Shown here: positions 1 to 24,245 of the stretch, in pieces
Position numbering within the stretch: position 1 is the first letter of the stretch
How the letters are laid out: each line of letters begins with the position of its first letter
Virus record (IMG/VR): IMGVR_UViG_3300007871_000001
Location: 1 to 24,245 of that record
Length of the DNA: 24,245 nt
From: a virus
Direction: 5' to 3' (one strand)
Notes under the pieces: model-generated
Told to the model about the DNA's origin: nothing
The model's database searches: none
Seen by the model: only the letters and a program-made list of their open reading frames with translations
Position numbers and translations under genes: made by a program

Positions 1-76
1 TTTTTTTTTTCAAGCAGAAGACGGCATACGAGATCTAGTACGGTCTCGTGGGCTCGGAGATGTGTATAAGAGACAG
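1..76 (+). other. Illumina Nextera adapter and poly-T (artefact)
   Basis: This segment is library sequence left on the contig. Positions 1-10 are poly-T, 11-34 match the P7 flow-cell oligo, 35-42 (CTAGTACG) match the Nextera N702 index, 43-57 match the i7 linker and 58-76 are the Tn5 mosaic end. On the opposite strand it reads as insert, mosaic end, index, P7, then poly-A, which is what a read-through beyond a short insert gives. Real sequence starts at about position 77. Confidence 0.97.
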
Positions 77-6626: not shown

Positions 6627-6961
6627 TAAGATATCTCCGTTCCAAATACTGTTATAGTAATAGCGTTAGCAGTTCCCTCTTGATACGCTAAGTTCCCTGC
6701 TGAATTGTGCATAGGGAAAAATCCCATTATTATTTCACTTGCTCCCGCAGCAATCAAGATGTCGTAAGCTAAAGCTGTAGTCTGATCATAGGTGGTGCCG
6801 TCGTCATCGAGGAACACTCGTACTTTAGCTGATGAACTGGATGTATTAGCGAGGACAATAGTAGTGACAATTGCTGTGACACCTGACGCTGGTGAATACA
6901 CACTGTGGGCACTTGTATCATTATCTCTCGACTGTCCCAGTTGTTTTTCTTGATAGGCCAT
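6626..6961 (-). CDS. Small beta-rich virion protein candidate, 111 residues
   Basis: The sequence (MAYQEKQLGQSRDNDTSAHS; TTIVLANTSSSSAKVRVFLD; DDGTTYDQTTALAYDI) has the alternating Thr/Val beta pattern and the 'ANTS...V.VFLDDDGTTYD' style often seen in small phage structural proteins. It is probably a single beta-sandwich that decorates head or tail. It lies among other structural candidates and is coupled at both ends by TAATG junctions (6961 and 6626). The exact role is not known. Confidence 0.6.
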   Translation of the reverse strand: MAYQEKQLGQSRDNDTSAHSVYSPASGVTAIVTTIVLANTSSSSAKVRVFLDDDGTTYDQTTALAYDILIAAGASEIIMGFFPMHNSAGNLAYQEGTANAITITVFGTEIS

Positions 6962-7161
6962 TAATGGTCCCTTCGTGTTATCGTAGCCATCATAACAGCG
7001 TACCTGAGTATATCCCTACCCCCATAAGCCGTTACAGCCCCGGTTGCATGTACTTCGGCAAACGTAGGTTTAGCATCAGGTCCAAGCTGGAAATCAACTT
7101 TCTGGAACTGCCGCCGTACTGATTTTAAATCAACTTTGTTTAATGTTGGTAGTAGTGCCAT
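6961..7161 (-). CDS. Small hypothetical protein, 66 residues
   Basis: Starts MALLPTLNKVDLKSVRRQFQ and ends AVMMATITRRDH; it is basic and of mixed alpha/beta character. No family recognised. Both ends use TAATG overlaps with neighbours, so it is part of the tightly coupled structural block and may be a minor virion component. Confidence 0.6.
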   Translation of the reverse strand: MALLPTLNKVDLKSVRRQFQKVDFQLGPDAKPTFAEVHATGAVTAYGGRDILRYAVMMATITRRDH

Positions 7162-7922
7162 TATATTACATTTCCTGCCTGAGTGCGTGGTTGCAAACTG
7201 CTTAGTGGTATTCCTCTAGCTTTTGCCCACGCTATCTGATCGGATGAATACAGTCCTTCATCTGATCCTGCTGGTATTAAATTACCACCACTCATTACCA
7301 TTCCGGGATCTAATTCGGCACCACCCTCACCACCGCCAGTACCGCCAGTGTCATCACCACCGAGTTGATCGTATAAATCATTCTCATACCCACTATCAAC
7401 AGAGCTTCCGCCACCACCGCTAATGCCGCCCCCGCTAATGCCGCCACCACTGCCCCCACTACCAATAGGTGGTACGCCAAAATCAACTCTACTCTGATAA
7501 TCATATTCAGCTCCCGCTTCAGCTATATCCCTTGATAATAATCCACTGAAACCACCAGTAGCCAGGTGTGCTATTGTACCTGCTGATGGGGCTACCTGTG
7601 GAACATTATATCCTGCCTTAGTAGTCATAGCACCAGCTTCACCAGCAGCACGTTTAGCCTCAATGTTAGCAGCCATACCTGCACGAACAGCACCAGGTCT
7701 GGATGTACCTGATAATCCGCGACTAATCATTTGCTGTTCAACAGGTGCCATCCCTTCTCGAAGTAGTCCTGCTGTGGAACCACCACCAGGTTTATATGTT
7801 TCAATAACACTCTGTAAATCAGATACACCAGTTTCATAGCGTTCCTGTTGTCCTGTTACGGCCTCATCATATTGACCAGTGAATTTCTGTAACAATGCAC
7901 TAAGATCTATTTCATTTGCCAC
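7161..7922 (-). CDS. Gly-rich structural candidate, paralogue of the preceding gene
   Basis: 253 residues starting with GTG (MANEIDLSALLQKFTGQYDE), with GAGGTGG upstream and three bases between the preceding stop and the start. The N-terminal helix (IDLSALLQKF...QQERYETGVSDLQSVI) and a central motif (LATGGFSGL) match the adjacent 153-residue protein. Between them is ISRGLSGTSRPGAVRAG, a 'RGL-x-GTxRPG' segment seen in internal or tail proteins of short-tailed phages. A Gly/Ser linker (SGGSGGGISGGGISGGGGSS) separates this from an acidic C-terminal domain. Likely a virion protein; its precise place is not known. Confidence 0.6.
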   Translation of the reverse strand: MANEIDLSALLQKFTGQYDEAVTGQQERYETGVSDLQSVIETYKPGGGSTAGLLREGMAPVEQQMISRGLSGTSRPGAVRAGMAANIEAKRAAGEAGAMTTKAGYNVPQVAPSAGTIAHLATGGFSGLLSRDIAEAGAEYDYQSRVDFGVPPIGSGGSGGGISGGGISGGGGSSVDSGYENDLYDQLGGDDTGGTGGGEGGAELDPGMVMSGGNLIPAGSDEGLYSSDQIAWAKARGIPLSSLQPRTQAGNVI

Positions 7923-7925
7923 AGT

Positions 7926-8387
7926 TTACCACCTCTCCGGCGAAGTAAAGCTATATGTGTTATTAGGCATTTTTGCTAAAGGTCCACCAGCCCCCTCTGC
8001 TTGTATTTGTCTGGTTAATCCACTAAACCCACCAGTTGCTAAATTAACAAGTGCATTCGGTCCAGGAAACAGATTTGGGAAAGCGTTTTGAAAACTGGCC
8101 CTGGTTGTCAGTGCCTTAGCCTTGCCAGTGGTAGACATTCTTTTTATAGCTGATTGAAATGTTTTTGATAACTTAGGTGATACCTTCCCGATTCCGACCA
8201 TGCCACTCTTAGCAGCAGTCATAGCAGCCTTAGACACTTTACCGGAAACATCACCACTGTACATATTAATTACATCAGATAGTTCTGACATACCAGCAGT
8301 ATATCTTCGCTGCTGTTCAGTCTGAGCACTCTCAAAATCAGTTGTAAGTTTTTTCAACAATGCTGGAATATCTATAGCAGTTGCCAT
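7926..8387 (-). CDS. Structural candidate, 153 residues, paralogue of the next gene
   Basis: Starts MATAIDIPALLKKLTTDFES and shares with the following gene the pattern ID-x-x-ALL-x-K...QQxRY-x-x-G-x-S-x-L-x-x-VI, then LVNLATGGFSGL. It lacks the Gly/Ser linker and acidic C-terminal domain of that neighbour. The middle is basic and Ser/Lys/Ala-rich. It begins in a TAATG overlap with the nozzle gene. Probably a virion protein formed by tandem duplication, but no function is known. Confidence 0.6.
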   Translation of the reverse strand: MATAIDIPALLKKLTTDFESAQTEQQRRYTAGMSELSDVINMYSGDVSGKVSKAAMTAAKSGMVGIGKVSPKLSKTFQSAIKRMSTTGKAKALTTRASFQNAFPNLFPGPNALVNLATGGFSGLTRQIQAEGAGGPLAKMPNNTYSFTSPERW

Positions 8388-10531
8388 TATTTAGTCCTTC
8401 CCATCTTTTTAGCGTTAACCAGCAGTTTCTCCATCGCCCAAGTTTGCCCTGCTGTATTATTCCCTATTCGTATTCCAAGATACGTGGCTTTAACCTTACG
8501 TCTTTTCATGCTGCCACGTATTCTACCTGGTGCACTAATCGTTCCGCTTGAACGTATATTTGTTCCAGCGTTCAAACGTTCAAGGATTTTTTCTGCATCA
8601 GTCTCACCATATATCTTATAATAGACATCGTTAGAATCTGCCTGATTTCCACCTGATACTCCACCACCGGCCAGGATGCCGGTTAACGATGTCATCTTAC
8701 CTTCTCTACCTTCTTCACCTAACTGAAACGGTCCAAAGTCAACATAACTGTCTATTGCTTCGGGTGAGTCATCTGTTATTACATCACTCTTAACAGTCGG
8801 GTCAAAAAATCTAAGATACCCATCAAAGCAACCAAACAGAAGTTTTCTGTAATCTGGATCTTCAGCTTCGTAATAAAATGCTGAGTACACTCCACATTCT
8901 TCCGGTAACGTATCTCTGAACAACCCACCAACAGTCTGACCATCACTGTTCACTCGCAGGTCGAACCACCAGTTGACACTTACACCTGTGGTTAATGTAG
9001 TTCTGAATATGTGTATCCCATTATTGTCACGGTCGTAGGCCATTGTAATTCTATGTAGTGAATCATCATAGGCCAGGTCTTTAACGAAATCAGGATAAGA
9101 CCTCTCAGTTAAATTCTGAGGCGGTCCGAAACCAGGCGGTATCCTTAACAGTCCATTGGTCGATAGTATATATAAGTTCTCATTCTTATCCCAACACCAT
9201 GCTTTGGCTCCAAGTATCCCCTGTGTTAAACTTAGTTCAAGTATGGAACCGCTCTCAGCAGCGTCACCTACCAGATACCATAGTGTGTTGGCACAGCCGT
9301 GTATCATATAATCATCCTTATATGGTATCGTAGCTATTACGATGTCACCCACTTCACCAGCATCCGAGTCACCACCACGCACAGGTGCAGTTGCCAGGTT
9401 ATCAATATAATTCCAATTCCAGGGATTATTAACCTCTGCCTGATACCACTGATGTGGATAGTTCTCATCACCTGATAACTGTGCCCGGCCACGATACAGA
9501 CAACCAAGTGTAGCATAGGATGGCATCACACCGTAAGTTGAATCGTTACCGTATACTGTCCAATCATACCAGTGTGGCCCCGCTACTTCATCAACGGCTG
9601 TCATATCAAACGATATGGTATTACCATCATCGTCTGTACCTGTGACAGTTTCACCAGTTGTAAATGTAGCAGCAGTAATTCGTTTACCGTAGAGTGTAGT
9701 GGCACCAGTTAATGCTGTAATGTAGTCTACCACCATTTCTGCACTGGAGCTTCCACCAGTTAGTACCGTGTGGAAATCAGGTGGGTGGCTACCTACATCA
9801 GCAGTTGCTATTTTCACATTAATGAAATCAGCGACCTTCATACGAGTTCCGTTTGCTATAAACACCTTGCCGAAAGCCTCGAACATGTCCAGGCCAACAG
9901 TACAATCAAGCTGGTCTACAGAAGCCGCTAATGCTGACATTGTTCCAGCAGCCGATTCGTACCATAATTGATTATTGCTTATAGCAATCAGTTTCTTACT
10001 ATAAGAAACATTAGACGCTGGTGGCGGATCATCAGCAACAACCAGATCTAAACTGTACTCTTTAAACATGAAGTCATAATCATCTAATGGGGCTACAATA
10101 GACCAAGAACCGCCACTATCTGCACTTGTAGAATTTTGACCCCCGGTATAGCTTCCAGAAGTATCGAGTCTCCACCGCACAGCCGTAGGTGAGGTCGCAC
10201 CAGTGGCCCTGCACACGATAGCATAAGTTGTACCGGCAGTCAACTGGACTCTCGTAGTAAATTCAATATCTACAAATGCACCTGGACTTGCACCAAGTTC
10301 ATCACCATCTATTGTGCCAACACACAAATCTGCACCTGATGGTGCACCTGCTGTAGTGTTTCGTATACTGACAGTAAAGGTGCCAGGTGCACCATTCTTA
10401 TAGAGTTTTAATGCGACTTTTCCTATTCTGTGACTTGTTGACGGTGTAAATGTTTGTGCAAACCACTTGGCACCCTCAACTGGTGAATGTGTAGTATCGC
10501 CAGTCTCGTAAGATTCATATTTTGTAGCCAT
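8387..10531 (-). CDS. Tail nozzle (tail tubular protein B-like) with an N-terminal beta-sandwich domain
   Basis: 714 residues from the ATG at 10531. The main part looks like a podoviral nozzle beta-propeller: YSKKLIAISNNQLWYESAAG, then FGKVFIANGTRMKVADF, LGCLYRGRAQLSG...HQWYQAEVNNPWNW, and IATIPYKDDYMIHGCANTLW, ending with basic sequence. This matches the T7 gp12 style and its place after the adaptor, at the tail tip. Residues about 1-165 (AQTFTPSTSHRIGKVALKLY...GTFTVSIRNTTAG) look like a separate jelly-roll or 'choice-of-anchor' type domain, perhaps binding sugars. A GTG at 10555 would add eight residues, but the TAATG coupling favours 10531. The usual N-terminal segment of such proteins is encoded in the gene just before it. 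Confidence 0.75.
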   Translation of the reverse strand: MATKYESYETGDTTHSPVEGAKWFAQTFTPSTSHRIGKVALKLYKNGAPGTFTVSIRNTTAGAPSGADLCVGTIDGDELGASPGAFVDIEFTTRVQLTAGTTYAIVCRATGATSPTAVRWRLDTSGSYTGGQNSTSADSGGSWSIVAPLDDYDFMFKEYSLDLVVADDPPPASNVSYSKKLIAISNNQLWYESAAGTMSALAASVDQLDCTVGLDMFEAFGKVFIANGTRMKVADFINVKIATADVGSHPPDFHTVLTGGSSSAEMVVDYITALTGATTLYGKRITAATFTTGETVTGTDDDGNTISFDMTAVDEVAGPHWYDWTVYGNDSTYGVMPSYATLGCLYRGRAQLSGDENYPHQWYQAEVNNPWNWNYIDNLATAPVRGGDSDAGEVGDIVIATIPYKDDYMIHGCANTLWYLVGDAAESGSILELSLTQGILGAKAWCWDKNENLYILSTNGLLRIPPGFGPPQNLTERSYPDFVKDLAYDDSLHRITMAYDRDNNGIHIFRTTLTTGVSVNWWFDLRVNSDGQTVGGLFRDTLPEECGVYSAFYYEAEDPDYRKLLFGCFDGYLRFFDPTVKSDVITDDSPEAIDSYVDFGPFQLGEEGREGKMTSLTGILAGGGVSGGNQADSNDVYYKIYGETDAEKILERLNAGTNIRSSGTISAPGRIRGSMKRRKVKATYLGIRIGNNTAGQTWAMEKLLVNAKKMGRTK

Positions 10532-10752
10532 TAATCTACCACTGTTACTGAACACATTGCTATGATTGGGTACGCTGTTCCACCGATCTGTTGAGCGTAT
10601 TTCTTACCCATGCCCGGACGTTGACCACCACGACCACGATCATCCAGAGCATCATAGGGTCTTACATTCTGCGAATCAGAGCATGTGCCTGCTGGTTGTT
10701 TCCCGGCTGGTAGCCCTTTATGAAAACCTTTGAATGGGAATAAAAGTTCCAT
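10531..10752 (-). CDS. Separate N-terminal piece of the nozzle protein, 73 residues
   Basis: The sequence MELLFPFKGFHKGLPAGKQP, then SQNVRPYDALDDRGRGGQRP, resembles the first segment of single-chain podoviral nozzle or stopper proteins ('NVRPYD-x-L-x-x-R-x-RGGQRPG'). Here it stops after 73 residues in a TAATG overlap with the large nozzle gene. No slippery heptamer is visible at the junction, so translational coupling is more likely than frameshifting. The start is supported by GAGG before the ATG at 10752. It could act as a short peptide that docks with the nozzle, or be half of a gene split by domain insertion or sequence error. Confidence 0.65.
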   Translation of the reverse strand: MELLFPFKGFHKGLPAGKQPAGTCSDSQNVRPYDALDDRGRGGQRPGMGKKYAQQIGGTAYPIIAMCSVTVVD

Positions 10753-17132: not shown

Positions 17133-18914
17133 TTAATCTCCTGCCGGTTGTGGTACACCAGTCTGAAAATCCTGATTACGTTGAGTACCTGGTCCAACTA
17201 TCATATTTCCTGCTGAATACCCACTACCATTTTGATTTATTTCGTTGCCAGCCCCTTTAGCCTTACCAGCGTTCTGTGGCCCCATTTGTGCCATCATTTT
17301 CATACGTTTAGCAAATTCAGGATCATTAAACCAATCCATAATTTCATCATCAATATCCATCTGATCAGCCAACGATGTTAGACATCGCTGTGCATTAAAT
17401 TCTATACCTGTCTGTGAGGCTATCATAGCTGATTGCATAATATTTGGAAAGATCTGTGTAGCAAACTTCATTATCAATCCATTCTTAATATTTGGTTCAA
17501 GCCGTGACATCGACCTGGCTTTCAACTTAAATGTAAGCTCAAAGAAATCACCATACCGTTGTTCGGGTGTAAGATACAGTTGTACATGCTTACCGCCGGG
17601 CTGTCGTTTAGACAGTGGTAACTGTATCAATGGGTCAGTATGCAAATACCAGGCTTCTTTACCGCTAATCTCTCCACCACATTCATAAATAAGCTCACGT
17701 TCATCTTGCACTATTACATTAGCATTCGTTTCAAGAATCTGTGCTTGTGTAGCTGTATTAGCATCTGACTTCAATCCAGCCATCTGATCAGGATTACCTG
17801 ACATATAATTATACCAGATTTGTGTCTGACTTAACATCTTTTCGTTGTTTACGTTCTGCCCACCATAGGACATAACCTTAACTGTAGTGGGATCAGCAAA
17901 TACAACGTCACCATCCGCTGCGGTACGCATATCTTCAGCTTCCTCTGATGCCGTTGCATCTGCGACTGTTATATCTTTTTGACGTGACGCTTGTTCCATA
18001 CTCTTAATCATCAGTTCATTAGCAAGATTATGTAAATCATACCACATACTCACTTCTGATATAGGGAGCGGATTATTAGGTACAGGTGGTGCAAACGACA
18101 AGTATGTATATGGCCCTTCTTTTGGCCCATAAAAGGAATCACCTTTTAGGTAGGTGTCAAATATTTTAATATCAGGATCAGGAATAGTCAACATAGCGTC
18201 TGCACCAGGGACATACACTTCCACAACATCAACGTAATCCTCTAATTCATTAATTTCCGTCTGACTAAGATTAGTTTGTGTTAACTTCTCGACCTTGTTT
18301 TTAGCATCTGGGTGAGAAGATTTTGGTAGTTGCATCACCAAGTCACTATCATACTCGTCATCATCAAGTAAGATTTGACGCGGTATTCGATTTCTATCAG
18401 CCACAAATGCAGCTTTCCTGAGTGCCCTGCATGTAGGATCTATAGATAAGTCATCAAGGTCTACAAGATCCGTATAAATTTGACCAGGGTCTATGAACAT
18501 GTCGCCATACGTCAACACTTGACCACTATCAGCGATACCAGTTTTAAAGGTAGAAAAACCAAAGAAGGCACTTACTGCACCACCGCGTAGAATATTCTTA
18601 AAATTAGTTTTCTCATGGATGTCGTCAAGCCCAAGCCCAAGTAGCCACGCATAATCCCGCTGTGCTACAACTTGTGTGAGCACCCTACTCACAGGATTTT
18701 TCATCACAAGATTAGGGACCATAGTACGTATCGTATGGAAAACCAGATTAATAGGAGCGTTGCCTGTCATACCCCTAACAGACGTATAATACTGACCCAC
18801 ATAGGCTTTAATAAACATAGCCCTTGCTTTGCGGTATCGTTTCAGTCTGTTAAAGCCCTCTTTAACTGCTAACGCTATTTTACGCGGATATTCGGCTTCT
18901 ACATTCAGACTCAT
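17133..18914 (-). CDS. Portal protein
   Basis: 593 residues placed between the terminase and the scaffold/capsid genes. The chain runs from an N-terminal helical region (KIALAVKEGFNRLKRYRKAR), through residues about 271-310 (YLSFAPPVPN, then SMWYDLHNLANELMIKSMEQ), to LKSDANTATQAQILETNANV (381-400), a segment of the kind seen in podoviral portals. The C-terminal tail is Gly/Asn/Gln-rich. The portal is a 12-mer at one head vertex through which DNA is packaged and ejected. Its ATG overlaps the stop of the small cysteine gene as ATGA. Confidence 0.8.
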   Translation of the reverse strand: MSLNVEAEYPRKIALAVKEGFNRLKRYRKARAMFIKAYVGQYYTSVRGMTGNAPINLVFHTIRTMVPNLVMKNPVSRVLTQVVAQRDYAWLLGLGLDDIHEKTNFKNILRGGAVSAFFGFSTFKTGIADSGQVLTYGDMFIDPGQIYTDLVDLDDLSIDPTCRALRKAAFVADRNRIPRQILLDDDEYDSDLVMQLPKSSHPDAKNKVEKLTQTNLSQTEINELEDYVDVVEVYVPGADAMLTIPDPDIKIFDTYLKGDSFYGPKEGPYTYLSFAPPVPNNPLPISEVSMWYDLHNLANELMIKSMEQASRQKDITVADATASEEAEDMRTAADGDVVFADPTTVKVMSYGGQNVNNEKMLSQTQIWYNYMSGNPDQMAGLKSDANTATQAQILETNANVIVQDERELIYECGGEISGKEAWYLHTDPLIQLPLSKRQPGGKHVQLYLTPEQRYGDFFELTFKLKARSMSRLEPNIKNGLIMKFATQIFPNIMQSAMIASQTGIEFNAQRCLTSLADQMDIDDEIMDWFNDPEFAKRMKMMAQMGPQNAGKAKGAGNEINQNGSGYSAGNMIVGPGTQRNQDFQTGVPQPAGD

Positions 18915-19042
18915 TTTTTATCCTTGTAGCTTATACATTTCTGTCTAAGTATTTTTGATAGTGCCGTTTCTCTTGTACCTATACTTAAAATTGGACATGT
19001 CTCACGGTGTACACACTTTCTACACTGTTTCTTAGTCGCCAT
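18911..19042 (-). CDS. 43-residue cysteine protein between large terminase and portal
   Basis: A very short gene that fills the space between two essential packaging genes exactly. Its ATG shares a base with the terminase stop (TAATG at 19042) and its stop overlaps the portal start (ATGA at 18911-18914). The translation starts MATKKQCRKCVHRETCPILS and has Cys 7, 10, 16 and 36 plus His 12 (C-x2-C-x5-C-x19-C). That spacing could hold zinc or an iron-sulphur centre, though a complete ligand set is not certain. It is basic (many Lys/Arg), which suits DNA or protein binding. The double overlap is the main evidence that it is real. No family recognised. Confidence 0.7.
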   Translation of the reverse strand: MATKKQCRKCVHRETCPILSIGTRETALSKILRQKCISYKDKK

Positions 19043-20958
19043 TATTTCTCGCTAAAATCAAAATTCCTACGCCACGCATGTTTCCTCTTTTTCCTCTCAG
19101 CATCAACTTTCTTCATTCGACCAGCAAATGATCTCCCAGGAACATTAATATTATCTACTATTGTGCTTCTCGGCACATCTTTACTACTTAATGTCAACGC
19201 ATCAGCGATAACACAATCACCATGAGTTTTCTTAGCGGCCTGAGTCTCTTTTACAAGATAAGCCGGACCTACACCACCATCGTCATAGTAAACGTAGAGG
19301 TTGACTTCATCAAGTGCCCATATACTATGGTTGATATATCCGCCCGTTGCGAGTAATCTATCATAGAGTTCAAGTAATTCTTTTTTGCTGTCTGGACTCG
19401 CTTGCCAACCGTATTTCTTTGATTTTTTATCCCTAATATTTCCAACTTTAATATCTTTATAATAGAATGGATACCGCCACTCTTTTACCATACGTGCCCC
19501 ATATTCCAAACCGGGGCCATTTTTCTCCCACTTTTTAAACGGTAACTTTTTTCTACCACCTACCCACAAAGCTACAGCTACAGAAATCTTAGCAAACTCG
19601 TATACTGGCGTATTAGCATCACGCCACTCCCCTACTTTTTCTCCTGTTTGAACACACTTAATAGAGATCACAGAATTAGATGCACCAACACCTTTGCTTA
19701 TATCAATACCAAGAATATAATCTTTGTGTTGATCAAGCCTGCCAAGTATCAAATTGGTCCATATACGCAAAGAACCATTCTTATTACGCCTGGCTTCAAC
19801 TTTTTTCAGATCTTTAGTTTTTATGATATCACATATTGCATTATCAGGTACATCTTTTTTAAACCTGATGTTCCAACGGGTCTTAGGTTCACACCCGAAC
19901 AACATCTTATGTCTATTAGCATTACCTGGCGTAAAAAACTGTGACCCTGATTCCAGATCATTAGCCAGGATCTCTCTCGCAATTTCTCTTGGAGATCTAA
20001 CTTTACATTCCTCGTCAAACCAGGGTGAGCGTATCTCCCATATCCCGGTAACAGGGTGCTTATGAGTATACCGTTTATAACCTTTATCCGGGTGGTCCCA
20101 AAACATCAGTGGAAATACTTTAATAGTCCCATCATTCTTCCACTTACTATACTCTGTTCCAGGACCGGCTACGGTTGAGTTAATAATACGCATCAGTGCT
20201 ACATCCCTGGTGGCACTACGCATGAGAGCACCGTTCTCAACCTTAGCAAATTCATCAAGCAACACTACAAGCCGTCTATCTCCTGATCCGGCATGTTCAG
20301 TTGTTGACTCTCCATCAATACAGCTACCGTTATATGAATTAAGCATGTGCATTTTACTTCGGTGCTTTTCACGATACTTAATTGCGGGTGGCAGCATCCA
20401 ATCAGGCAACCACTGGTTTATGTAATCATGCCTTTGAAACAAGGCCTTCATGTTACCAGCCTTGTCTACATAATCCTCAGTACGTGACATTTCAAGTAGC
20501 TGTGCATCTTCTCTGAACAACCACAGCCAGTGCATAAACGCTATACATAGCCAACTTGCACCCATATCACGCGATTTATTAACCAGAATATCCTCAGCAT
20601 CAGCGAGGCATTTTTCAAATATATTACAGAGATCATCCTGCACTTCCCAAGTTACAAACGGTACGTGAGCGTTTGCTGCTTCTATTCTTTTTCCTGTTTC
20701 GCACTGAACATCAAACTGGTGGTATGTCATAACAAAGGTGTTGATCCAAAATAATAGAGACTGCTTACTTGCAGCCAGTAAGTCCTCTTGCAGAATAATA
20801 TCGTGCTCTGCTTCACCCAAAAGTTTATGTCTGTATCTCAAATTAGGCGAAGGGTTTTTAGGCACATACAGACCCGTCTTGGTACATTTCCACCTATCAG
20901 ACACGTTTGGAAATGGAGTCTTTAGCTTTGGCTCTATTGATTCTTCAACAGTGATCAC
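19042..20958 (-). CDS. Terminase large subunit
   Basis: 638 residues. The ATPase part has a Walker A-like NKSRDMGASWL (about 127-137), Walker B LVVLLDEF (220-227, catalytic E226), and a coupling-like IINSTVAG near 258-265. The RNase H-type nuclease part has ILGIDISKG (D419), NGPGLEYG (E485 candidate) and HGDCVIADAL (D581/D586). The protein cuts concatemers and drives DNA into the procapsid by ATP hydrolysis at the portal. The start is a GTG overlapping the upstream stop (GTGA at 20955-20958). Both catalytic domains look intact. Confidence 0.9.
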   Translation of the reverse strand: MITVEESIEPKLKTPFPNVSDRWKCTKTGLYVPKNPSPNLRYRHKLLGEAEHDIILQEDLLAASKQSLLFWINTFVMTYHQFDVQCETGKRIEAANAHVPFVTWEVQDDLCNIFEKCLADAEDILVNKSRDMGASWLCIAFMHWLWLFREDAQLLEMSRTEDYVDKAGNMKALFQRHDYINQWLPDWMLPPAIKYREKHRSKMHMLNSYNGSCIDGESTTEHAGSGDRRLVVLLDEFAKVENGALMRSATRDVALMRIINSTVAGPGTEYSKWKNDGTIKVFPLMFWDHPDKGYKRYTHKHPVTGIWEIRSPWFDEECKVRSPREIAREILANDLESGSQFFTPGNANRHKMLFGCEPKTRWNIRFKKDVPDNAICDIIKTKDLKKVEARRNKNGSLRIWTNLILGRLDQHKDYILGIDISKGVGASNSVISIKCVQTGEKVGEWRDANTPVYEFAKISVAVALWVGGRKKLPFKKWEKNGPGLEYGARMVKEWRYPFYYKDIKVGNIRDKKSKKYGWQASPDSKKELLELYDRLLATGGYINHSIWALDEVNLYVYYDDGGVGPAYLVKETQAAKKTHGDCVIADALTLSSKDVPRSTIVDNINVPGRSFAGRMKKVDAERKKRKHAWRRNFDFSEK

Positions 20959-21332
20959 TCAGTAACGTCCTTAGACACACTATTAATCCGCTTCTTGCTC
21001 TGATCGCCAACTCGGTCAGCTACAGTTCGTCGTTCCTTCTTACCTGGTTCAACAGCGGCCACCCTACCTTCAAGGCGATCAAGCAGCATACCAACATACA
21101 CACGGTCAGGCGGGTGAGCAATATCTGTTAATTCATTATTAACCAATTGCTGTTCGGTCCAACCAAGACCTTTTTTCCAGATTAACCTGGCAAGTTTCTC
21201 AGCTTTACTGATCATCTTAGGGTCGTCAACGCTATCATTAACTTCAGTTTTTTCTTCAGCTATGTCACGCAATAAAGAACTAAGAATTAATCCTGCCCGT
21301 TGTTTCTTTTTTGATCCTTCAGTCTGTGCCAT
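20955..21332 (-). CDS. Probable terminase small subunit
   Basis: 125 residues immediately upstream of the large terminase and overlapping it by four bases. It starts MAQTEGSKKKQRAGLILSSL and includes KAEKLARLIWKKGLGWTEQQ followed by VYVGMLLDRLEGRVAAVEPG. The latter resembles the 'x-IFDRI-[DE]-GR' signature of small phage proteins encoded next to large terminases. Basic segments at both ends suit DNA binding. The call rests on position plus this signature. A TAATG overlap with the protease gene sets the start. Confidence 0.6.
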   Translation of the reverse strand: MAQTEGSKKKQRAGLILSSLLRDIAEEKTEVNDSVDDPKMISKAEKLARLIWKKGLGWTEQQLVNNELTDIAHPPDRVYVGMLLDRLEGRVAAVEPGKKERRTVADRVGDQSKKRINSVSKDVTE

Positions 21333-22091: not shown

Positions 22092-23759
22092 TTACACGTG
22101 GGCCGCGTGACTTATGTCATACCAATCAGACCCGTCACATATTAAAGTCCATCCACCATATTCCGTATCCAATTCCTCATCGTTACCTTTATGTAAATGT
22201 ATGTCCTGACCTCCACCAGCTTCTTCGTGTTCAAGTACGGCGGAAAAGGCAGCGTCACAACTTTTCACGATAATTAATATTTGGTTTTTACGACCACCCT
22301 TAAATCCACCTATGGTAACATCATTAGCTGCACAATCAATCCATAGAATACTAACATCAGTTACATCTACATCATCTGTTGGTCCTTCTGTGCTAAATGT
22401 CCTGCTACCAACACTGATCGCCTTGCCAACATTAAGTGGACCACTTGTATTTGATGCAGGTCGACCAAATCTCGGTGGAACGAAAGCTATAAGGTCATCT
22501 GCATTATTAGGTACCAACCACATACGCTCACCGTCAAATACTGCACTTATAAAAGCAGCATTTTCTTTTCCGTGAGGGTAAGAGATCATACTATTATCCT
22601 CTGGATTCAACTTTACTATATAATCGGAATTTTCCGGTATCAACCAAATACTCTCACCATCAAAGTGACCACCCGAAAACGCTGTAGCACCCTGTCCATG
22701 AGCTATAGCGGTCATCTGACCGTTAGTCGGATTAATCTTCATAATATTCTCGGCAGCATTGGGGACAACCCATACATTCTGACCGTCAAACACAATACCC
22801 TTGAACATATTATTGTCACCCTGCCCGTGAGCATAAGTTGTCATGCTACCATCTGAAGGATCAACCCTCACAATACTGGGACCATCAAACGGTGCCAACC
22901 AAATATATTTTCCGTCAAAGCAGCCGCCTACAAACTTGTCACCACCAGCATCAACACCAGTTATATCATACTGAGTTAACGAACCATCAGCAGGATCTAA
23001 TCTTGTAAGATTATCAGAGTCCCAGGGACACAACCAAACATACTGACCATCAAATATAGCACCCTGATAAGCATCAGCCCCTTGCCCATGAGCAATTGCA
23101 GTCATGCTACCATCTGAAGGGTCCACTTTGATAATATTGTCATCGGCAAACGGAACTAACCAGATGTTTTCACCATCAAACACACCACCAACAAAACTAT
23201 CCGGGTGTGCTGCCATATTATAAGATGTCATTGATCCATCAGACACGTTCACTTTCACAAGATCAGCAGAACCGAGAGGTATCAACCAAATACTCTCACC
23301 ATCAAAAACACCACCACCAAAAGCTCCGGCACCTTTACCGTGAGCATACTCATCCTGTATCGGTCGCCAGGGACAAGTAATAACTCTATCACAAAGAGCA
23401 TGTAAGTCACCCTCAGCAGCAGCTACCGTAATTACAGTAGCAGTATTATCTGTAACTTTCAGCCAGATCCCTAAATCTATGTCACCATTGACATAGCTGT
23501 AAACATACTGACCTACCAGAGCGTCAACTACCCAGGTATCAGCGTCCCTTGTAAATGTTTGAGCAGTTGTTCTGGTGCCAGCGATGGCAGCTTCAGGGGT
23601 AATCTTAGAGTAACCTGGTGCAGACTGCCCTGATGAATTGTTACCAGCAAATCGTTCTCGCTTCCCGCCGTGTACGATAGACCGTATTGCGTTATTACCC
23701 TGAACCTTCAGACTATCAAAATCTGGATTCGGGTAATATGGATATTTAATTATACTCAT
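22092..23759 (-). CDS. Tail/receptor-binding candidate with a seven-repeat beta-propeller
   Basis: 555 residues. The N-terminal part (1-140) is a probable attachment region. It includes a beta stretch near 80-115 like the modules of the adaptor. Residues about 147-427 are seven repeats whose FDG triplets fall at 152, 194, 236, 281, 324, 366 and 408. Each has FDG-x-x-[IV]-W-L-[IV]-P, then [IV]-x-K-[VIL]-x-P-x-DGSMT. A seven-bladed propeller is the natural reading. The C-terminal domain (WTLICDGSDWYDISH at the end) resembles ends of phage tail fibres and spikes. Such a protein could bind a surface sugar or protein. No enzyme motif was seen. AAGGAG precedes the ATG; the stop is 13 bases before the protease gene. 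Confidence 0.7.
   Translation of the reverse strand: MSIIKYPYYPNPDFDSLKVQGNNAIRSIVHGGKRERFAGNNSSGQSAPGYSKITPEAAIAGTRTTAQTFTRDADTWVVDALVGQYVYSYVNGDIDLGIWLKVTDNTATVITVAAAEGDLHALCDRVITCPWRPIQDEYAHGKGAGAFGGGVFDGESIWLIPLGSADLVKVNVSDGSMTSYNMAAHPDSFVGGVFDGENIWLVPFADDNIIKVDPSDGSMTAIAHGQGADAYQGAIFDGQYVWLCPWDSDNLTRLDPADGSLTQYDITGVDAGGDKFVGGCFDGKYIWLAPFDGPSIVRVDPSDGSMTTYAHGQGDNNMFKGIVFDGQNVWVVPNAAENIMKINPTNGQMTAIAHGQGATAFSGGHFDGESIWLIPENSDYIVKLNPEDNSMISYPHGKENAAFISAVFDGERMWLVPNNADDLIAFVPPRFGRPASNTSGPLNVGKAISVGSRTFSTEGPTDDVDVTDVSILWIDCAANDVTIGGFKGGRKNQILIIVKSCDAAFSAVLEHEEAGGGQDIHLHKGNDEELDTEYGGWTLICDGSDWYDISHAAHV
22479..23321 (-). repeat. Seven 42-45-residue propeller repeats
   Basis: Spacing of the FDG triplets is 42, 42, 45, 43, 42 and 42 residues. 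The repeats diverge in loops (for example PLGSADLVKV, PFADDNIIKV, PWDSDNLTRL) while the core strands are kept. Blades 2, 5 and 6 are the closest to each other around AIAHGQGA. Confidence 0.8.
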
Positions 23760-23768
23760 AGTTTCTCC

Positions 23769-24245
23769 TTAGACTGGTATATACCAACCAACTACACCGT
23801 CATTAGCATTGTCAGCGTCTATATGAATGTCGTTTAATTGGAGTTTACAACCTGCTGGCATTTCAAGTTCCCAAGTTGCACCAGGTATTAATTCAAATTC
23901 TTCAGCTGCACCTTGTTCAAGATCAGATAAACCAATGAATACATTACCCACGTTATCAGCACCAGCTTTCTTTGCCTGAAGATAAATTGCTCTTGCCTCT
24001 GTTGAAGCTACAATTAACTGCTGTGCCGTACTTACAACGTCTACAGTTTCCGCAATCTTTACAGGCACCTTTGCTACTGGTGCCGAAGTCAGTACAGCCG
24101 TGTCATCAGCTACAATAACTAACTCGCTATCAATAGCTGTCAGTGCAGTCTCAGTCGTTTCTAATTGACTTACAAGTTTAGTGGTGTCAGTATCAATTAA
24201 TACAAGTTCGCTATCGATAGCTACTGCACTCGCAGCTATATTAAC
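23769..24245 (-). CDS. Fibre-like protein, C-terminal part (5' partial at the window edge)
   Basis: The frame is open from the window edge to the stop at 23769, giving 158 residues; a GTG at 24068 is only an internal codon. The visible N-terminal part has AIDSELV twice, 28 residues apart (84 bases), with intervening Leu/Val spacing of about seven. That equals four heptads, as in trimeric coiled-coil fibre shafts. The last 99 residues (VKIAETVDVVSTAQQLIVAS; GNVFIGLSDLEQGAAEEFEL) form a small beta domain of a kind common in phage structural proteins. It is probably a tail fibre or head fibre; most of it may lie outside the window. The next gene follows after nine bases. Confidence 0.6.
   Translation of the reverse strand, partial: VNIAASAVAIDSELVLIDTDTTKLVSQLETTETALTAIDSELVIVADDTAVLTSAPVAKVPVKIAETVDVVSTAQQLIVASTEARAIYLQAKKAGADNVGNVFIGLSDLEQGAAEEFELIPGATWELEMPAGCKLQLNDIHIDADNANDGVVGWYIPV

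Follow-up and report, generated by a model that had tools for sequence, protein, structure and literature searches.

What does a 555-residue protein with seven tandem repeats do for the virus that encodes it? The protein, which we will call P0001, is encoded near the end of the window, which is the whole stretch of DNA that we analyzed: a 24,245-base viral record from IMG/VR whose main genes all lie on the minus strand (Table 1). An earlier, sequence-only reading took the repeats for a seven-bladed propeller and proposed that this was the host-recognition part of a short-tailed phage. Judging from its sequence, P0001 is a mosaic of an anchor, a carrier domain, a propeller, and a cap. We propose that it is probably a tail-fiber or adhesin subunit of a tailed (and probably short-tailed) virus, with the propeller as its recognition head.

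Table 1. Genes of the window and domains of P0001.
Feature	Position	Strand	Evidence
Propeller gene (P0001), 555 aa, mosaic tail-fiber-like protein, stop included	22092..23759	-	ORF translation
Gene preceding P0001, 158-aa open frame cut by the contig end, small protein without assigned function	23769..24245	-	No Pfam match
Next gene after P0001, trypsin-like peptidase with hydrophobic N-terminal segment	21332..22078	-	PF13365, E 8e-27
Small protein before the large terminase, presumed small terminase	20955..21332	-	Position and conservation in relatives
Terminase large subunit (TerL)	19042..20958	-	phrog_2, E 5e-9
Portal protein, SU10-like, below Pfam cut-off	17133..18914	-	PF23899, E 8e-6; phrog_1216, E 2e-6
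Candidate tail nozzle, 722 aa plus overlapping 73-aa ORF	8387..10752	-	Conserved in L013 and L025; role inferred from position; no Pfam call
P0001: short N-terminal segment, presumed virion attachment	residues 1-28, 23676..23759	-	Position only; no family match; low pLDDT
P0001: beta-rich carrier domain, GTRT..FTR..TW..DALxGQYxxSY..W..ITDN	residues 29-134, 23358..23675	-	Recurs in P0002 (L001), L049, L113, L114, L115, L117, L118; pLDDT <50
P0001: predicted seven-bladed beta-propeller, closed by a strand that precedes the repeats	residues 131-430, 22470..23369	-	AlphaFold2 pLDDT mostly 83-97; VIA Z 35.2 to 2z2o; Pfam DUF6923, E 1.4e-7
P0001: C-terminal cap domain ending CDGSDWYD-SHA-HV	residues 440-555, 22095..22442	-	39-58% identity to the C-termini of nine other viral proteins; three match PF25692 (Phage_depo_C) below cut-off

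The repeats and the predicted propeller

The motif FDGxx[IVLM]W occurs seven times in P0001, whereas no more than one copy arose in any of 20,000 shuffled sequences of identical composition (mean 0.0014). The distances between successive phenylalanines are 42, 42, 45, 43, 42, and 42 residues. This agrees with the steps of 42-45 residues in the sequence-only reading, and its block of repeats at 22479-23321 does correspond to residues 147-427. Its longer motif, FDG-x-x-[IV]-WL-[IV]-P, has seven copies but was drawn too tightly: repeat 7 is FDGERMWLVP, with M instead of I or V, and position 9 varies across repeats 1-7 (I, V, C, A, V, I, V). DGSMT, given as the latter half of the repeat, is exact in blades 1, 2, and 4, is altered in blades 3 (DGSLT), 5 (NGQMT), and 6 (DNSMI), and is absent from blade 7.

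When run without an alignment, AlphaFold2 predicted seven blades with pLDDT of about 80. With a 14-row alignment built from the loci found in this analysis, the propeller reached the values in Table 1 and the C-terminal domain about 80, and residues 1-130 were not resolved. Both models close residues ~131-430 into one ring, as had been anticipated from the repeats. We assigned strands to the two models with DSSP and read the pairing of the closing strand from the strand order. Blade 7 contributes only three strands and has no outer one of its own; its fourth strand appears to be supplied by residues ~131-139, which lie before the repeats. Completion of the last blade by a strand from before the first repeat is the usual way for propellers to close. 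Because this strand belongs to the ring, the domain begins ~15 residues before the block of repeats.

The predicted structure matches known closed seven-bladed propellers. Both Foldseek and VIA ranked virginiamycin B lyase first, ahead of YncE and WD40 rings (for 2z2o, rmsd of 2.1 over 289 residues by VIA; Foldseek TM by target of up to 0.87). Virginiamycin B lyase (2z2o, 2z2n, and 2qc5) has the same closed seven-bladed fold, but it is a cellular enzyme with 16% identity to P0001, and P0001 lies outside the corresponding Pfam model: Vgb_lyase (PF24684) does not match P0001 at E <= 1, whereas it matches the propeller from another locus (L005) at E = 3e-11. We read this match as informative about fold and not about function.

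P0001 does match the Pfam family DUF6923 (PF21959), with 31.9 bits against a curated cut-off of 27 bits, and its closest relative is likewise above the cut-off. DUF6923 is a repeat model without an assigned function and gives no information on a viral role; no papers mentioning it were found in the literature that we searched. A sequence search of the PDB with P0001 alone gave nothing credible, and a search with a two-row propeller profile gave weak matches only, to designed Pizza propellers.

Viral relatives share the anchor, carrier, and cap

The closest relative, P0002 (from contig L001), is 49% identical to P0001 over residues 16-435 and also has seven repeats. Its gene belongs to a baseplate operon (Phage_base_V, gp25, Baseplate_J, and Tail_P2_I, with the gp25 and Tail_P2_I calls below the Pfam cut-off) and lies directly after Tail_P2_I; a small gene and then a DUF4815 protein are downstream. 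The contig also encodes a terminase, a portal, a sheath, and a tube, which indicates a contractile-tailed phage. (The sheath is a PHROG match; the Pfam sheath model found none.) The N-terminus of P0002 is an Mtd_N anchor (E = 3.6e-9) that matches several tail fiber and tail spike PHROGs. Mtd_N is the N-terminal domain of the major tropism determinant of Bordetella phage. The N-terminus of P0001 matches no known anchor in Pfam.

The domain of ~80 residues that precedes the propeller recurs in viral proteins, mostly in a virion context (Table 1). The N-terminal 140 residues as a single query found nothing in the viral contigs, but a three-row alignment of this region did find relatives of the carrier there. 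In L113, the carrier is followed by seven blades, and the gene lies a few genes after that of a baseplate OB-domain protein. In L114, L115, L117, and L118, the carrier sits inside other proteins, most of them structural-looking. A match in L116 was set aside, as it is not in a clear ORF.

The carrier in L049 (7812-8810) is followed by only three blades, the first two of which are 90% identical in DNA. L049 is a virus-like segment within a contig assigned to a Methanolobus MAG, and the propeller gene is downstream of a large protein with distant similarity to the 1222-aa protein of the window (21% identity, E = 4e-15). The three blades might be either a partial ring that needs oligomerization or a problem of assembly or binning. 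A different arrangement is found in L003, an 84-kb virus record that includes head genes and a prohead protease: propeller paralogs lie in tandem as three genes (6739-9836), which encode proteins of 338-343 residues, with about seven blades each and fiber-like N-termini. No reverse transcriptase of a hypermutation system was found in the records of L001, L113, or L003, and tblastn of P0001 against 50,697 GenBank phages found nothing.

The cap (~115 residues) ends nine other viral proteins, mostly fiber-like, as CDGSDWYDxSHAKHV or nearly so. The middles of these proteins differ, with LamG, segments that are repetitive and beta-roll-like, or an Mtd_N start, and several of them match LamG, Mtd_N, or tail fiber or tail spike PHROGs; one cap-bearing protein has just 171 residues. 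A shared cap with differing middles is the mosaic layout of tail fibers, and this is the strongest independent reason to regard P0001 as a fiber. Thus P0001 shares domains with known fibers, given this cap and the Mtd_N anchor on its near relative. Three of the cap relatives (L029-L031) score 20.7-22.4 bits against Phage_depo_C, below its cut-off of 25, while P0001 does not match that family at E <= 1. A profile search of the PDB with the cap found nothing.

The gene neighborhood

The window is probably a fragment, since its end truncates a gene. The virus infects bacteria (or archaea). Beyond the portal gene are scaffold, capsid, tail, and ejection-type genes, whose roles we partly inferred from gene order. 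No sheath, tube, or tape-measure genes were seen among the ORFs of this incomplete record, which makes a short tail plausible. The trypsin-like peptidase between the fiber and terminase genes is retained in many relatives. In the candidate nozzle, the 73-aa ORF (10531-10752, minus strand) overlaps the 722-aa ORF (8387-10555, minus strand). L013 and L025 also have separate overlapping ORFs, whereas L027 has one 527-aa ORF whose start matches the 73-aa ORF. This might reflect gene fusion or a programmed frameshift. At the other end of the window, positions 58-76 (plus strand) are an exact 19-base match to AGATGTGTATAAGAGACAG, which we take to be the Nextera transposase mosaic end and which yields "MCIRDR" at the start of the ORF at 48-482. 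Leftover adapter in the assembly would explain this and makes the first ~76 bases suspect.

The gene for P0001 adjoins the protease and terminase genes at the contig end, in contrast to the baseplate location of P0002. Using the terminase, we found 22 loci. The region beside the protease and terminase varies among them, and other proteins are encoded there: L017 and L024 have long, repetitive proteins of beta-helical appearance by eye (with a G8 match in L024), L027 has a LamG-like protein, and other relatives have small proteins. P0001 is missing from the records of eight relatives, including the longer L013, L016, and L023, although such fragments cannot prove absence; this pattern is as expected for a swapped adsorption gene. 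Upstream of the protease in close relatives is a 189-aa ORF (L013, 2420-2989) that looks SPFH/prohibitin-like by eye, which is also present in L025 (194-775) and partly in L008.

A probable tail fiber and its alternatives

If P0001 is a fiber subunit, then residues 1-28 would attach it to the tail, the beta-rich carrier would act as a spacer, and the closed propeller would be the recognition head. The cap probably drives or locks oligomerization, a role that C-terminal caps play in many tailspikes. The binding face, for a glycan or protein on the host surface, would be the one with the D-A and B-C loops. The proposal that this is a host-recognition protein gains support for its tail-fiber part, from relatives in baseplate or tail contexts and from the shared anchor, carrier, and cap; we infer that P0001 is incorporated into the virion and oligomerizes, and that it has a binding face, a ligand, and a receptor.

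The loops of the putative binding face are the least conserved part. Between P0001 and P0002, the top-face B-C loops share 14% identity with boundaries from the models, or 11% in a fixed register, as compared to ~51% overall and 49-64% in the strands and A-B turns. We considered this variability as proof of selection by receptors and rejected it: in pairs of cellular propellers of similar total identity, B-C loops are 18-36% identical, so the control has nearly the same bias and the excess is slight.

The propeller might instead be an enzyme, such as a glycan or lactone lyase or hydrolase that cuts a surface polymer, which would make P0001 a depolymerase-type tailspike and not a passive binder. 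The closest fold is a lyase, three relatives of the cap have weak matches to Phage_depo_C, and a histidine recurs in most of the D-A loops on the top face. But a common fold does not demonstrate activity, and the Vgb_lyase model recognizes the protein from L005 and not P0001, so we consider this unlikely. That P0001 is a structural or decoration protein of the head or tail, with no role in recognizing the host, seems more doubtful still: relatives of the carrier do lie within other structural-looking proteins, and the gene is next to the terminase and portal genes, but the nearest relative has an Mtd_N anchor and is in a fiber slot, and the cap is borne by fiber-like proteins.

Some nozzle or muzzle proteins, such as those of T7, SU10, and crassvirus, include seven-bladed propellers (PMC6702177, PMC9509320, PMC10172136). 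It is nevertheless scarcely conceivable that P0001 is the tail nozzle. Another candidate (722 + 73 aa) in the window comes after the other tail genes and, unlike P0001, is conserved in relatives; the propeller of P0001 is uninterrupted, whereas that of the T7 gp12 type is interrupted by nozzle domains and is encoded among head-tail connector genes; and the nearest relative of P0001 is from a contractile-tailed phage. We also think it very improbable that P0001 is non-virion cargo, such as a protein that infected cells would secrete or display on their surface. The propeller family does occur in surface proteins of Paenibacillus with SLH-like C-termini, but no signal peptide is apparent by eye at the N-terminus of P0001, and its carrier and cap are common to fiber-like proteins of viruses. 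The tail-fiber or adhesin role is the explanation that we prefer.

Such a role has precedents. The sequence-only reading described a propeller as unusual in a phage tail protein, which is too strong: propellers are found in the phi11 RBP, PRD1 P2, and phiKZ gp131C (PMC4901313), and BFVD contains many from phages. In the RBP of Staphylococcus phage phi11 (Gp45), as in P0001, a propeller platform is flanked by an N-terminal stem and by a C-terminal domain, but the propeller has five blades, the stem is triple-helical, and the phage is a siphophage of S. aureus (PMC4901313). We found no sequence relation between the two proteins. The other two were those then known to the authors of that study. 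As described there, the C-terminal propeller of phiKZ gp131 (PDB 4GBF) has seven blades, like P0001, and is at the periphery of the baseplate; it was proposed to bind a receptor, although this function was unconfirmed, and phiKZ is a myophage (PMC4901313).

Where might this propeller have come from? A first scan of genomes with the full alignment found nothing, but a scan for propeller homologs gave 74 loci. The best full-length cellular homologs are proteins from Paenibacillus (L038-L046), which are 35-39% identical to P0001 and share its blade register and its seven repeats (FDG/YDG-x-x-x-W-x-x-P). They differ in having blades of 47 instead of 42 residues and a cell-surface architecture, with SLH-like C-termini in several, and they lack the carrier and cap. 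In a fixed blade register, P0002 is no closer to P0001 (0.51) than to the Paenibacillus proteins (0.44-0.52). In a tree of propellers, P0001, P0002, L113, and the Paenibacillus proteins are separated from L003-type propellers (support 100). The branching within this viral and Paenibacillus group is weak (support 52 and 27), and the tree therefore does not show which way the propeller was transferred.

Because the propeller family is common to virus fibers and cell-surface proteins, a role in the virion cannot be read from the propeller alone. Non-virion homologs had been named in advance as evidence against a host-recognition role. Surface-type proteins do exist in Paenibacillus, yet the closest full-length relative is in the fiber slot of a phage. 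A bolder scenario, which we think improbable, is that viruses of different tail types swap a cassette of carrier and FDG propeller that was derived from, or donated to, Paenibacillus-type propellers of host cell surfaces, so that an adhesin domain of host type would guide the virus to cells that bear that same surface or bind to it.

Propeller adhesins of viruses were already known, but as far as we searched, this sequence family is newly tied to fibers. Contractile-tailed and apparently short-tailed viruses carry its propeller head on different anchors. The carrier and FDG repeats, with or without the cap, offer a sequence signature for propeller-type fibers that would otherwise go unannotated in uncultured phages.
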